Assembly (NCBI RefSeq): GCF_011492945.1
Contig: NZ_CP045119.1
Span: 1,798,001 to 1,862,000 of the forward strand
Direction: 5' to 3'
DNA from: Rubrobacter tropicus
GTDB lineage: Bacteria; Actinomycetota; Rubrobacteria; Rubrobacterales; Rubrobacteraceae
Length of the DNA stretch: 64,000 nt
Below, one piece after another: positions 6,801 through 14,720 of this stretch. Position 1 is the stretch's first letter, and each line of letters begins with the position of its first letter. The translations under genes were made by a program, and so were the position numbers. The notes beneath the pieces were generated by a model that did not search any database, was not told where the DNA came from, and worked only from the letters and a program-made list of their open reading frames with translations.

Positions 6801-7982
6801 GTGTCTTCCGCTGAGGGAACAGGGCCGGAACGCAAGGTCTACAAGGACCACAACCTGCACGTGCTCTGGGGGGTTACCCTGATGGCGGTGCTCGGGGTAT
6901 CGAGCGTGACGCCTGCGTTTCCTGCCATTTCCCGGGAGTTCGGGATCTCGGGCGGGCAGGTCGGGTTGCTTATTACCGTCTTTACGCTCCCGGGTATCGT
7001 GCTTACGCCGGTGCTCGGGGTGCTCTCGGACCGGTACGGGCGGAAGAAGATCCTGGTCCCGGCCCTGCTCCTCTTTGGGGTGGCGGGGGGTGCTTGCGTC
7101 TTTGCCCGCGACTTCCAGCTCTTGCTCGTCTTACGCGCTTTTCAGGGTATGGGGGCCGCGGCCCTGGGCACCTTGAACGTTACCGTGATCGGGGACATCT
7201 ACGGCGGGCGCGAGCGCTCGGCGGCGCTGGGCTACAACTCCAGCGTCCTCTCCGTTGGGACCGCGAGTTATCCGGCCGTTGGTGGCGTGCTCGCGACGTT
7301 CGGGTGGTTCTACCCCTTTGCGCTGCCGGTGATCGCGGTCCCCATCGCCGTGGTCGTGCTCTTCTCGCTGCGCAACCCCGAGCCGCTGAACGAGCAGGGC
7401 CTCAAGGAGTACTTCGGGAGCGTGTGGGGGCACCTGCGCGACAGGGAGGTGCTCGGCCTGATCGGGGCCTCCCTCATGACTTTCATCATCCTCTTCGGAC
7501 CACAACTCTCCTACCTCCCGATCCTGATGAACGACCGGTTCGACGCGCCCTCCTACGTCATCGGCGCCGTCCTCTCCGGCGCCTCCCTGACCACAGCCCT
7601 CGTCTCCTCCCAACTCGGCCGCCTGACGGGCCGCTTCGACGAAAAGACCCTCCTCAAGACGTCGTTTTCCCTGTACGCCATAGCCCTCGCGGCCGTCGCC
7701 ACAGCTCCCACGCTCTCCCTCCTGCTCGTCCCTGCCGTCCTCTTCGGCGTCGCCCAGGGGATCAACCTCCCCAACGTCTTCTCCCTCCTCAACTCCCACG
7801 CCCCCAATGAGAACCGCGGCGCCTTCATGGCGACGAACGGCATGTCCCTGCGCACCGGCCAGACCATAGGCCCCCTCTTGATGGCCTCCCTGGCCGGAAC
7901 CCTCGGCGTTACCAACGCCTACCTCGCCTCCGCCGCCATAGCACTCGCCGCCTTCCTGCTCGTCCTCGCCTTCGTCCGCTAG
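6801..7982 (+). CDS. MFS transporter, drug:H+ antiporter type
   Basis: From GTG 6801 the protein is about 393 residues with twelve predicted membrane helices. It has the loop 2-3 signature LGVLSDRYGRKK, and RAFQGMGAAA in helix 4 as in DHA1-type exporters. A longer frame from TTG 6732 would add a short unusual N-terminus, so the start is not certain. It most likely exports small molecules using the proton gradient. No regulator lies next to it, and the substrate is unknown. Confidence 0.82.
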   Translation: MSSAEGTGPERKVYKDHNLHVLWGVTLMAVLGVSSVTPAFPAISREFGISGGQVGLLITVFTLPGIVLTPVLGVLSDRYGRKKILVPALLLFGVAGGACVFARDFQLLLVLRAFQGMGAAALGTLNVTVIGDIYGGRERSAALGYNSSVLSVGTASYPAVGGVLATFGWFYPFALPVIAVPIAVVVLFSLRNPEPLNEQGLKEYFGSVWGHLRDREVLGLIGASLMTFIILFGPQLSYLPILMNDRFDAPSYVIGAVLSGASLTTALVSSQLGRLTGRFDEKTLLKTSFSLYAIALAAVATAPTLSLLLVPAVLFGVAQGINLPNVFSLLNSHAPNENRGAFMATNGMSLRTGQTIGPLLMASLAGTLGVTNAYLASAAIALAAFLLVLAFVR

Positions 7983-11076: not shown

Positions 11077-11084
11077 TTAACTAA
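11077..11084. repeat. Target-site duplication, left copy
   Basis: TTAACTAA here and at 14599-14606 directly flank the two inverted ends of the element. Eight bases is the usual duplication length for IS1595-family transposition. Confidence 0.85.
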
Positions 11085-11116
11085 GGCAATAACGTACTTG
11101 ACTCACCAAAACGTGG

Positions 11117-11122
11117 TATAAT
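11117..11122 (+). promoter_or_regulatory. Extended -10 promoter for the transposase
   Basis: TGGTATAAT contains a perfect -10 (11117-11122) with the extended TGn. It lies just inside the left end of the element, so the transposase carries its own promoter. TTGACT at 11098 lies only 13 bases upstream, too close to act as the -35. Confidence 0.55.
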
Positions 11123-11287
11123 GCACTCATAGACGGAAAAAGCCAGCCGAAAACCCTCATAGAAGCCATCCGGTTCTTCTCGGATCTGGACGTTGCAACC
11201 GCGTACTTCGCCAAGCTCCGTTGGCCAGAAGGCCCGGTTTGCCCGAAATGCGATGGCAAGGACCACTACCACCTGAAGACCCGCAGG

Positions 11288-12052
11288 GTGTGGAAGTGCA
11301 AGGCCTGCAAGAAGCAGTTCTCGGCCAAGGTCGGCACGGTCTTTGAGGACTCCCCGATAGGCTTGGACAAGTGGCTCCCCGCCGTGTGGTTGATCGTCAA
11401 CGCGAAGAACGGCGTAAGCTCCTACGAGATCGCCCGCAGCCTGGGCGTTACCCAAAAAACCGCGTGGTTCATGATGCACCGCATACGGCTCGCCATGCAG
11501 ACCGGCACCTTCGAGAAGCTTTCGGGCGAGATAGAGGCCGACGAGACCTTCGTCGGCGGGCTTGAGAAGTTCAAGCACGAGTCCAAGAAGCGCAAGCGGG
11601 GGCGCGGCTACAACGGCAAGACCGCCGTTATGGGCCTCGTGGGTAGGGACGGAGAGGCGAGGGCCAAGGTCATCCCGAACACCGCGAAAAGTACGCTTCA
11701 CGGCGGGGTCAGGGAGAACGTCGAGCGCGGCTCGACGGTCATAACGGACGCCCTCTACTCCTACCGGGGCTTGCAGGGCGAGTACACGCACGAGTGGGTT
11801 GACCACGCCATCGAGTACGTTCGCGGGAACATCCACACGAACAAGACGGAGAACTTCTGGAGCCTCTTGAAGCGCACCCTAAAGGGAACCTACGTCCAGG
11901 TGGAACCCGAACACCTCTCGCGCTACCTGGACGAGCAGACCTTCCGGTTCAACAACCGCGAAGGCAAGGATGCGGATAGGTTCGCAAAGGCGCTCGGAAA
12001 CGTGGCGGGGCGGCGGCTCACCTACGACGAACTGACAGGCAAGACCGAGTAG
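11288..12052 (+). CDS. IS1595-family transposase
   Basis: Zinc-ribbon plus DDE-type transposase. Counted from GTG 11288, the catalytic residues are D85 (IEADETFVGG), D154 (VITDALYSY) and E188 (TNKTENFWSLLKR). Family similarity clearly continues upstream in the same frame back to about 11135, with the segments KTLIEAIRFFSDLDV and GPVCPKCDGKDHYHLKTRR, the latter giving the first CxxC of the zinc ribbon. No ATG, GTG or TTG exists between the upstream TGA (11099-11101) and 11288. Translation must begin at a rare codon such as ATA, or the element has lost its start. Confidence 0.85.
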   Translation: MWKCKACKKQFSAKVGTVFEDSPIGLDKWLPAVWLIVNAKNGVSSYEIARSLGVTQKTAWFMMHRIRLAMQTGTFEKLSGEIEADETFVGGLEKFKHESKKRKRGRGYNGKTAVMGLVGRDGEARAKVIPNTAKSTLHGGVRENVERGSTVITDALYSYRGLQGEYTHEWVDHAIEYVRGNIHTNKTENFWSLLKRTLKGTYVQVEPEHLSRYLDEQTFRFNNREGKDADRFAKALGNVAGRRLTYDELTGKTE

Positions 12053-12072
12053 GGGTTCGCCTAGAGGAAGGC

Positions 12073-12480
12073 TTAGCTGCCCGAACCCCCGCCGGGGTTC
12101 TGCGGCGGGGGTTGGCCGGGGAAGTAGTGGCCCGCTATGTAACCCCCCAAGGCGGTGATAAATGGGGCGAAGTACTTCACTAGCTCGAATGCGTTGTTCC
12201 AAGGTTCATTACTTCGCAACGCTCCGACAGCTCCCACACCCAGGACAGCAAGAAACAAGGCGAAGAATCCGATAATGAGTGCCCTGCGTGTTCGTTCTCG
12301 GGAGCGTTCCGGGTCTCTTGTTGCAATCTGCTCGACCGCTTCTCCTACCCCCGAAACGTCAACGTTGACCTTGACGGGCGGCGCAGAAGGAGAGGCCCCC
12401 GCGTCCGACGCGGGGGCCTCTCCTGATTCCTGCATAGCTTCTTGCCTTGGGGGCGGCGGATCGCCAGGGTTACCGGCCAC
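12073..12480 (-). CDS. Small membrane protein, IS1595 cargo
   Basis: A 135-residue protein with a charged, proline-rich N-terminus and a predicted membrane helix around ALIIGFFALFLAVLGVGAVG. A second hydrophobic stretch, YFAPFITALGGYIAGHYF, precedes a Pro/Gly-rich tail. Start GTG 12480 shares one base with the stop of the upstream regulator (TAGTG), so the two are translated together. Its codons include an 18-bp perfect palindrome at 12388-12424. The holin-like size and topology are suggestive only. Function unknown. Confidence 0.65.
   Translation of the reverse strand: MAGNPGDPPPPRQEAMQESGEAPASDAGASPSAPPVKVNVDVSGVGEAVEQIATRDPERSRERTRRALIIGFFALFLAVLGVGAVGALRSNEPWNNAFELVKYFAPFITALGGYIAGHYFPGQPPPQNPGGGSGS
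12084..12113. terminator. GC-rich hairpin after the transposase gene
   Basis: AACCCCCGCCG (12084-12094) pairs over an 8-base loop with CGGCGGGGGTT (12103-12113). It lies 30 bases beyond the transposase stop and overlaps the end of the opposing membrane-protein gene. No T run follows, so terminator activity is uncertain. Confidence 0.4.
12388..12424. repeat. Perfect 18-bp inverted repeat inside a coding region
   Basis: AGGAGAGGCCCCCGCGTC (12388-12405) is the exact inverse of 12407-12424, with a single C between them. It lies inside the small membrane-protein gene and codes for the Ala/Ser/Gly-rich linker. The DNA or RNA could fold into a very stable hairpin. Confidence 0.85.
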
Positions 12481-12722
12481 TACGGACGGACGATCTCCTG
12501 AGGACGCCCGCTATTGCGCTCGACAAGCACATGCCCGCCGCTATCCACGGTGTCCTGGTACCACTTCTCGAAGGCTATAGCATCACGCAGCACCTCGGAG
12601 ATGCTCTTGCCCCTACGCTCCGCTATTTCCGTAAGGACCTTGTAGGCATCAGGAGAGAAATTGGCATTCACGCGCACCCTCTGACCGCTTTCACGGGTCC
12701 TGCTCTCGACGGTCTCGGCCAT
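12480..12722 (-). CDS. Ribbon-helix-helix (CopG/Arc-type) protein, IS1595 cargo
   Basis: From ATG 12722, with GAGAGGAGAG just upstream, the protein has 80 residues. A short strand, RVRVNANFS, is followed by DAYKVLTEIAERRGKSISEVLRDAIAFEKWY, the strand-helix-helix pattern of RHH DNA-binding proteins with the typical G-K-S-I-S-E turn. It probably represses the palindrome-rich region just upstream (12770-12846). It could be an antitoxin, but the coupled partner does not look like a known toxin. Confidence 0.78.
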   Translation of the reverse strand: MAETVESRTRESGQRVRVNANFSPDAYKVLTEIAERRGKSISEVLRDAIAFEKWYQDTVDSGGHVLVERNSGRPQEIVRP

Positions 12723-12769
12723 GTTGCTCTCCTCTCTCGGTGCCGGTTTCGTGTGGTAGGGCACCTAGT

Positions 12770-12846
12770 ATATGAGGCGTTTGTGTACCTCATATGAGTA
12801 AATCATACACCTAGGCGGTTTCCGGTACCACCTAGGCGGTACCGGA
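12770..12846. promoter_or_regulatory. Operator region with nested palindromes and 21-bp spaced repeats
   Basis: Three signals overlap. ATATGAGG (12770-12777) is inverted at 12788-12795. CACCTAGGCGGT occurs at 12808-12819 and again at 12829-12840, exactly 21 bases apart. A 26-bp palindrome at 12821-12846 has arms TCCGGTACC/GGTACCGGA around CCTAGG, with two mismatched positions. The region lies between the divergent RHH and protease genes of the element. Confidence 0.65.
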
Positions 12847-12939
12847 GAGCTGCGAATCCTCTATCAGCTTCTTGTAGGGCAGCGTTTCGGCTAGCCCACT
12901 GCCCCCGGGTAGAGGGTTACCGGGGGGACACCGCCAAGA

Positions 12940-12957
12940 TACACTACATAAAGTGTA
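12940..12957. promoter_or_regulatory. Palindrome in front of the SDH-type protease gene
   Basis: TACACT (12940-12945) and AGTGTA (12952-12957) are inverted around ACATAA, about 40 bases before the start codon. The position and AT content suit a promoter/operator. Confidence 0.4.
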
Positions 12958-12995
12958 GAACACTAGGCACAAGGGTAACAACAGCGGCGGACCTT

Positions 12996-13907
12996 GTGGA
13001 TGCACTACGGGACGCTACGAAGCGGGAGATGATGGCGGAACGACGGTCGGATCCAGTATGGACGCAGATTATGGCCGATATAGGCCAGAGTCACCAGACG
13101 CGCCAGGAAATCTACGCCGGACTGGAAGTCGAACTTGGCAAGCCCGTGGTAACGCTTTTTACCAGCTTCGTCAACGCGGCTCCCCTTGCGGATGCGGACG
13201 CCGACATGCTGGAAGGCGTCTTGCAAAACATGGACCTGTCGGAAGGTTTTGTGTTGGCGATAAATTCGCCTGGCGGCAGCGGATTAGCCGCAGAGCGGAT
13301 CATCAACATTTGCCGTGGCTACAGCGGTACCGGCGAATACCAAGCCTTCGTGCCCAACAAGGCGAAGTCTGCCGCAACGATGGTGTGTCTCGGCGCGAGC
13401 CAGATTTTCATGGGGCCTAGCTCGGAGTTAGGCCCCGTGGACCCGCAGTTGACCGATGCCCAGACGGGGCAATGGTTTTCTGTCTACAACCTCGTTCAAA
13501 GCTACGACGATTTGTTCAAGCGAGCCGTGGAGGCAAATGGCAACTTGGAGCCCTACATTCAGCAGTTGGGGCGCTATGACGAACGAGAAATTCAGGAGCT
13601 TAGACAGGAACTTGCGTTATCGGAGGACATTGCGACCAGGACTCTTGCCAAGGGGATGATGGCGGGCATCTCCGAAAGTGACATAGGAGAACAGATAAAG
13701 GTCTTTCTAACCCCGGAGCGTACCAAAACGCACGGCAGACCGATTTACAGGGACGAGGCGTTGGAATGCGGTTTGGCGATAAAGCCGGTCGAGGTCAAGG
13801 AGAGGCTATGGGAACTCGCGTTTGAATTGTATCTTCGGGCGAACGTTTACGTGAGTACGAACGTAACAAAATGCGTGGAAACCAAAGACCACGCCTTCTT
13901 CGCGTAG
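12996..13907 (+). CDS. SDH-type (ClpP/crotonase-fold) serine protease, IS1595 cargo
   Basis: A 303-residue protein matching the serine-dehydrogenase-proteinase family. AINSPGGSGLAAERI (about 89-103) is the oxyanion-side motif. NKAKSAATMVCLGA (121-134) carries the likely nucleophile S125, and MGPSSELGPVDPQ (139-151) is strongly conserved. It is related to ClpP and SppA and probably cleaves peptides or proteins. No signal peptide is visible. The start is GTG 12996, or an internal ATG near 13029 preceded by GCGGGAG. Base composition is less GC-rich than neighbouring core genes, in keeping with transfer. Confidence 0.78.
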   Translation: MDALRDATKREMMAERRSDPVWTQIMADIGQSHQTRQEIYAGLEVELGKPVVTLFTSFVNAAPLADADADMLEGVLQNMDLSEGFVLAINSPGGSGLAAERIINICRGYSGTGEYQAFVPNKAKSAATMVCLGASQIFMGPSSELGPVDPQLTDAQTGQWFSVYNLVQSYDDLFKRAVEANGNLEPYIQQLGRYDEREIQELRQELALSEDIATRTLAKGMMAGISESDIGEQIKVFLTPERTKTHGRPIYRDEALECGLAIKPVEVKERLWELAFELYLRANVYVSTNVTKCVETKDHAFFA

Positions 13908-13919
13908 CGGGAGGTAGCG

Positions 13920-14174
13920 ATGAGCGAAGCAACGAAGCAAGAGCAGACGATGGAAAGACAGAGAAGATTCGAGCGGGCGCGTAAGAGTGTGCGCGATATG
14001 GAAGAAGCGGTCGAGCCATACACCGAGAGGCACGAGATCCGTGAAAGTTCGGAGCCGAGTCAGTGGCGCGATGCCTCGGATTACGAGCGGTCCCATTTCT
14101 TCCGCGACTTGAAGAAGGTGGTTAGGAAACTGCCCTCGAATCACCCTTCTCGATCCGGCTCAGGAGGGCGCTGA
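13920..14174 (+). CDS. Small charged hypothetical protein, IS1595 cargo
   Basis: An 84-residue protein, strongly charged and probably helical (RRFERARKSVRDMEEAVEPY), ending in a basic Ser/Gly tail. No known domain. ATG 13920 has a good GGGAGG site and starts 12 bases after the protease stop, so the two form an operon. Its role may be to assist the protease, but nothing in the sequence shows this. Confidence 0.6.
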   Translation: MSEATKQEQTMERQRRFERARKSVRDMEEAVEPYTERHEIRESSEPSQWRDASDYERSHFFRDLKKVVRKLPSNHPSRSGSGGR

Positions 14175-14227
14175 ACATCCCTTACGGGTCTTCACGGTGC
14201 TAGAGGGAGAGGACTTGGGCTTGTAGC

Positions 14228-14416
14228 TTAGCCCGCCCGCTTCTCCCGTTCCCGCTTCTCTTTCTGCTCCCGCTCCCACTTGCGGCGTTCGGCGTCCACT
14301 TCCTCTTTCGGAACCTTCGCCAGCTTCTTCATGGTTTCCTCGAAGCGGTCGAATTCCTCGCTGCGTTCGTCCTCTTTGCGTTCTTGGTTCGGCTTCTCGT
14401 CCTGCACGTTAGCCAA
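14228..14416 (-). CDS. Small charged hypothetical protein, IS1595 cargo
   Basis: A 62-residue, very charged, probably fully helical protein (EEFDRFEETMKKLAKVPKEE, then a K/R/E-rich tail). It has a proper length-wise stop and start but no motif and no clear ribosome binding site. It is convergent with the preceding small gene and near the right end of the element. It could be chance reading of a repetitive stretch. Confidence 0.42.
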   Translation of the reverse strand: MANVQDEKPNQERKEDERSEEFDRFEETMKKLAKVPKEEVDAERRKWEREQKEKREREKRAG

Positions 14417-14720
14417 CCTTTCGGCGCGTTAGACGCGCTGTTGAATCGTTAGCCGTTCTGTTTACTCGCCAGACGTGCTGTCGCATTCTACTACGCTGTG
14501 TAGTACGGATGCCCACTACTTGCGTACCGGATGACCACTGGATGCGCACAACTTGTTCACCTCCATTTGCTGCTTGGTGAGCCAAGTACGTCATTGCCTT
14601 AACTAAAGCTACGTCGGGTGGGGGAGACGTGGGGATTGCGGGGTACGGGGAGAAAGGTGGAAATGGCTCTGTTCGGCTTTACAATTGGGAGGCCGAGGAG
14701 ATCCGACAAGAGGTGAGAGA
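14417..14720. other. Right end of the IS1595 element and intergenic gap
   Basis: No gene is seen. 14574-14598 is the inverted right end of the element and 14599-14606 the right TTAACTAA duplication. Bases 14420-14540 contain several short inverted motifs (GCGCGTTAGACGCGC, CTACTACGCTGTGTAGTA), which may help define the element end. The rest, 14607-14720, is the leader of the DUF59 gene. Confidence 0.6.

Follow-up and report, generated by a model that had tools for sequence, protein, structure and literature searches.

A cargo-carrying IS1595 transposon of Rubrobacter tropicus from a subclade marked by a small hallmark protein

We describe an element of Rubrobacter tropicus that is, with high confidence, a cargo-carrying IS1595 transposon (a "transporter IS"). 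It spans positions 11085-14598 (about 3.5 kb) of the window, the 64-kb stretch of DNA analysed here, and its IS-type ends enclose genes that have no part in transposition. It belongs to a subclade whose members share their ends, their transposase and a small protein called VPK (23 of 27 loci), and mostly differ in their cargo. Within the literature searched, a subclade with this hallmark and with exchange of compact modules appears undescribed.

Results

The borders of the element are right to the base. A first-pass annotation had placed them at 11085 and 14598, with ends matching at 23 of 25 bases and the same 8 bp on either side, and the sequence confirms this. Within the 64-kb window, the flanking octamer is present solely at the two sites listed below. 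Terminal inverted repeats with an 8-bp target duplication and an IS1595/ISXO2-like DDE transposase with a zinc ribbon place the element in the IS1595 family, and the exact element is single-copy. Its features are as follows.

11077..11084, no strand: left target-site duplication TTAACTAA, from direct sequence and the empty site in congeners
11085..11109, + strand: left terminal inverted repeat, 25 bp, 23/25 against the right end, GGCAATAACGTACTTGACTCACCAA at the left end
11129..12052, + strand: IS1595-family transposase, from domain matches and alignment with relatives
12073..12480, - strand: 135-aa protein with one apparent transmembrane segment (judged by eye)
12480..12722, - strand: RHH (CopG-type) regulator, PF01402 E=4.8e-7, probable ATG start at 12722
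12762..12840, no strand: divergent intergenic region with CACCTAG repeats, candidate RHH operator
13032..13907, + strand: SDH-type ClpP/SppA-fold serine protease, start at 13032 likely, GTG at 12996 also open
13920..14174, + strand: 84-aa protease partner, an ORF downstream of the protease; L007 has a comparable ORF at this position
14228..14407, - strand: 59-aa VPK hallmark protein, GTG start after AAGG, conserved across related elements
14427..14486, no strand: three 20-bp direct repeats upstream of the VPK gene, with the same period in L005 and L069
14574..14598, - strand: right terminal inverted repeat, 23/25 against the left end
14599..14606, no strand: right target-site duplication TTAACTAA, from direct sequence

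The regulator with its membrane protein and the divergent SDH-type protease with its small partner, all named in the first-pass annotation, are present; that inventory holds but missed the VPK gene, the 20-bp repeats and an ATA codon at the head of the transposase frame. The transposase matches PF12762 (E=5e-40) and NF033547 (E=1e-57), with PF12760 also above cutoff, and its D139/D208/E242 columns are intact (numbering of window:11126-12049). At 11129-11131 the window reads ATA where aligned related transposases have ATG, and the first ATG, GTG or TTG of the frame comes only at 11288. This copy could be impaired, could start at a rare codon or could reflect an assembly error, and it may not be able to produce its own transposase from a normal start. 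An Rfam search of the window gave no match, and a sigma-70 promoter search within the element found none.

Comparison with congeners establishes that the element inserted at this site. A 1,008-base query joining both flanks through one octamer copy has a match in each of the nine genomes of the genus, and in six congeners the alignment crosses the junction without an insert. At the empty site of G004, identity is 81% over query positions 3-1003, with TTAATGAA at the junction. With the site uninterrupted in six congeners, lack of the element is the usual condition across the genus, and its insertion here took place in this lineage. These empty sites prove insertion as a past event only. Together with the transposase domains, the ends and the duplication, they support the earlier reading of an IS1595-type mobile element with cargo; protease genes at this locus without the element ends, which would have spoken against that reading, were seen in no congener. 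We also considered a composite transposon and a prophage moron: the first was rejected on the single transposase and single pair of ends, the second because the flanks are chromosomal and syntenic in congeners.

The window element has close relatives, beginning with one in its own genome. This second element, L005, is 2,535 bp long with CTATTCAC on both flanks; its left end differs from that of the window element at 1 of 25 bases, its transposase is 73% identical (protein) and has ATG at its start, and the same small gene lies at its right end. Its cargo comprises an 86-aa ORF together with a 281-aa membrane protein that resembles phrog_3630. Beyond this genome, we assembled 51 IS1595-transposase loci; the sources were 396 phylum genomes, a set of 301 genomes centred on a Chloroflexi genome, and the IMG/VR contigs. 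Elements were delimited by a perfect 8-bp duplication together with ends matching at 18/25 or better. Sixteen subclade elements (1,784-5,904 bp) and 13 outgroup elements (1,927-5,082 bp) were delimited in this way, all longer than a transposase needs. The subclade ends follow the consensus GGCAATAATATACTTGACTCACCAA, shared by the window element. The first-pass annotation had proposed to look for other copies with the same ends; the members of the subclade share theirs.

Two loci show further arrangements. A 361-bp element at L065:5531-5891, bounded by ends of this kind and by a separate 8-bp duplication, CAAGTAAA, interrupts the transposase gene of a larger member of the subclade; it has no transposase and one 100-aa ORF, and we read it as a mobile cassette lodged inside an element of its parent type. 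At L071:2546-5652, perfectly matching 25-bp ends lack a target duplication, perhaps from recombination between copies.

Sister cargo that is recognisable by Pfam matches consists mostly of toxin-antitoxin, restriction or peptidase/protease genes. Within the subclade it includes a PemK toxin (L069), SocA/Panacea (L071), DUF3800 (L123), Fic, which is SoFic in PADLOC (L070), Schlafen AlbA_2 with HATPase_c_4 (L054), DUF433 with DUF5615, the latter just below cutoff (L066), an N6_N4 methylase with Mrr_cat (L074), and Trypsin_2; several sister cargos have no recognisable function. Outgroup cargo comprises a D12 methylase with a PDDEXK nuclease (L124), an N6 methylase with HSDR_N (L125), PIN (L126) and an N6_N4 methylase (L129). 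Among the outgroup IS1595 loci in Chloroflexi-centred genomes (L124-L139), restriction-modification and PIN genes lie inside clean 8-bp duplications without VPK. As a control we took ten flanking genes, one per element, of which one had a PADLOC match (an ABC protein) and the rest were unmatched or housekeeping. Cargo and flanks appear clearly different by these matches, though the control is small.

The cargo protease of the window element is a distant member of a known fold. It scores 36.7 bits against PF01972 (gathering cutoff 31.3, E=3e-9) and 48.2 bits against the equivalog NF047768, below the curated cutoff of 250. Its predicted nucleophile is S125 (numbering from 12996), and a low-confidence model (mean pLDDT 61.7) suggests a ClpP/SppA-like fold. 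Only three relatives occur in our genome contig collection, at 60% and 43% identity; a search of the phylum added one more at 53% (G259), whose gene is cut by the end of a 3.1-kb contig. This close clade is rare and patchy, like accessory genes. Viral contigs yielded no close relatives; distant ones occur in phages, phage-like plasmids, other plasmids and prophages. Three distant SDH-type proteases (L142, L143, L145) stand at accessory positions, in a Mu-like phage, in a phage-like plasmid and beside an integrase gene, and are possible phage morons.

The protease and its 84-aa partner form a unit that also exists outside the element. In L007, a Chloroflexi MAG locus, the protease is followed at once by a partner-like ORF (about 6900-7085) that shares a motif with the window partner (QWRDTSSLY vs QWRDASDYE), and that genome has no transposase of this subclade. 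The pair found together without the transposon is therefore a real unit existing apart from it. The first-pass annotation had called the cargo set unfamiliar: the full four genes (protease, partner, RHH regulator, membrane protein) were indeed not found elsewhere or in another element, but protease and partner recur in Chloroflexi.

The RHH regulator scores 29.9 bits against PF01402 (cutoff 20.5). Its gene overlaps that of the 135-aa membrane protein, which matched no family above cutoff, and both diverge from protease and partner. A plasmid search for the membrane protein and the 84-aa partner found neither. Between the divergent genes, CACCTAG occurs at 12762, 12808 and 12829, with four occurrences in the whole 64-kb window; the copies at 12808 and 12829 sit within exact 12-bp repeats 21 bp apart. 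From its position this region is a likely operator, through which the RHH protein would repress the divergent promoters. A perfect 18-bp inverted repeat with a 1-nt loop lies at 12388-12424, inside the membrane-protein gene. Membership of the RHH/membrane pair in the protease unit has no independent support.

Whether the cargo serves defence is close to an even call. The first-pass annotation had suggested a mobile stress or defence module, and this is plausible by the company the cargo keeps: the suggestion stands by association, through sister cargo and the distant protease relatives in prophages and plasmids, but PADLOC models gave no match to the window cargo genes. We rate a role of the defence or toxin-antitoxin type as about as likely as not: the cargo's company, its patchy spread and its regulator speak for it, and the lack of a match to any known defence protein speaks against it. 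A contending explanation, to which we give a little less than an even chance, is that the cargo is a neutral, metabolic or stress passenger, with the SDH protease serving general protein turnover and its acquisition, together with an unrelated RHH/membrane pair, due to chance. The missing PADLOC match, the absence of that pair beside the protease elsewhere and the sister cargos without recognisable function would all fit such a passenger, but the Pfam-matched sister cargos are mostly of toxin-antitoxin, restriction or peptidase kinds next to housekeeping flanks, and the close protease clade is distributed like accessory genes.

The subclade is marked by VPK, a protein of 50-65 aa. A profile built from 11 of these small proteins found 11 more in 453 kb, all within subclade loci. 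Presence in 23 of 27 subclade loci compares with 0 of 24 outgroup IS1595 loci (Fisher p~1e-10), and VPK distances track transposase distances (Mantel rho 0.53, p=1e-4), both p-values coming from related loci that are not independent samples. Of the four subclade loci without VPK, two have a truncated transposase and two (L059, L064) hold look-alike ORFs, judged by eye. Seven of eight matches (E<=0.001) in 296 phylum genomes lie at subclade transposases, the eighth being marginal; the 301 Chloroflexi-centred genomes gave two matches, one at the sole strong subclade transposase. The other (L159:1495-2322, G460) is the C-terminus of a protein that looks by eye like an HsdS restriction specificity subunit, and the surrounding 3 kb showed no transposase. 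A VPK motif there means that VPK is not entirely exclusive to this transposon. The motif is likewise the C-terminus of related Trypsin_2-type peptidases in L056 and L072. Modelling predicts a two-helix hairpin (pLDDT 81). The 20-bp period upstream of the gene gives 27/40 lag matches in the window and 26/40 in L005 (shuffle maxima 25 and 23), and weaker repeats in L069 (22/40).

VPK would on our reading be a core accessory of the element. It might instead be cargo, a small regulator or antitoxin travelling with different toxins and no core transposition factor, an alternative that we regard as possible but somewhat improbable. Its occurrence on either strand and at varying positions, and its fusion to the Trypsin_2 peptidases and the HsdS-like protein, point that way; yet VPK is kept when cargo changes, follows transposase distances and is absent from the outgroup loci.

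Discussion

We favour a transposon that moves as one unit. A chance or composite structure, with ends and cargo joined by recombination, would accommodate the uneven GC of the element (61% in the transposase, 56% in the protease) but is exceedingly improbable against the perfect 8-bp duplication, the six empty congeners and the many sister elements of the same plan. In the transposon model, the transposase would pair the 25-bp ends and insert the whole 3.5 kb into AT-rich DNA, and the second element's transposase could putatively move the window copy in trans. VPK as a core accessory would perhaps act on the 20-bp repeats to control itself or transposition. The 84-aa partner may be substrate, adaptor or inhibitor of the protease; together the two could form a conditionally active protein-degrading module of toxin-antitoxin or anti-phage kind, either useful to the host or serving to maintain the element, a proposal we rate at about one in two.

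Autonomous transposons of the smallest size are usually regarded as carrying a transposase alone. A clade retaining a single transposase and one tiny extra protein while it swaps compact toxin, restriction or protease modules would be a simple single-gene vehicle spreading defence-like genes. The shared ends and the VPK motif offer a direct route to mine new modules, anything between them being candidate cargo, and VPK is a candidate transposition or regulatory factor open to testing. A bolder proposal, which we consider unlikely, is that carriage of small toxin-antitoxin, restriction and protease modules, exchangeable among elements, is the dedicated role of a widespread undescribed IS1595 clade, dependent on a conserved two-helix VPK of about 55 aa that would act both as accessory and as a cargo tail linking transposition to cargo activity, with the SDH protease and its partner as one anti-phage module.

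Comparison with known systems

The window protease shares its fold and its SPGG / KSAAT core with the SDH-type ClpP-like serine proteinases (PF01972, NF047768), but falls into a clade of its own and is followed by a small partner. The closest phage family is phrog_11747, of unknown function. S125, the KSAAT serine of the window protease, aligns with the ASAGT serine of the NfeD/PH1510 membrane protease, and its predicted ClpP/SppA fold is that of ClpP (PDB); it differs from both in very low sequence identity (E=0.024) and in having no membrane-anchor or ATPase gene here.

The case for the transposon itself is strong, and the type is familiar, IS1595 elements with passengers being already known. 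Transporter IS (tIS) of this family are defined by passenger genes between IS-type ends (PMC11891212), with examples such as ISNha5, tISCpe8 and MTnSag1 (Siguier et al. 2009, as cited in PMC11891212 and PMC5704250). ISNha5 carries transcription regulators as passengers (PMC11891212), and MTnSag1/tISCpe8 combines an IS1595 transposase with 25-bp inverted ends and 8-bp duplications (PMC5704250). Our literature search for IS1595 elements with toxin-antitoxin, restriction or defence cargo returned no paper on the present group, and the founding 2009 IS1595 paper may hold part of it. The window element resembles ISNha5, tISCpe8 and MTnSag1 in its IS1595 transposase, ends, 8-bp duplication and passengers; compared by description only, it differs from them in its protease module, its VPK protein and the change of cargo from copy to copy.
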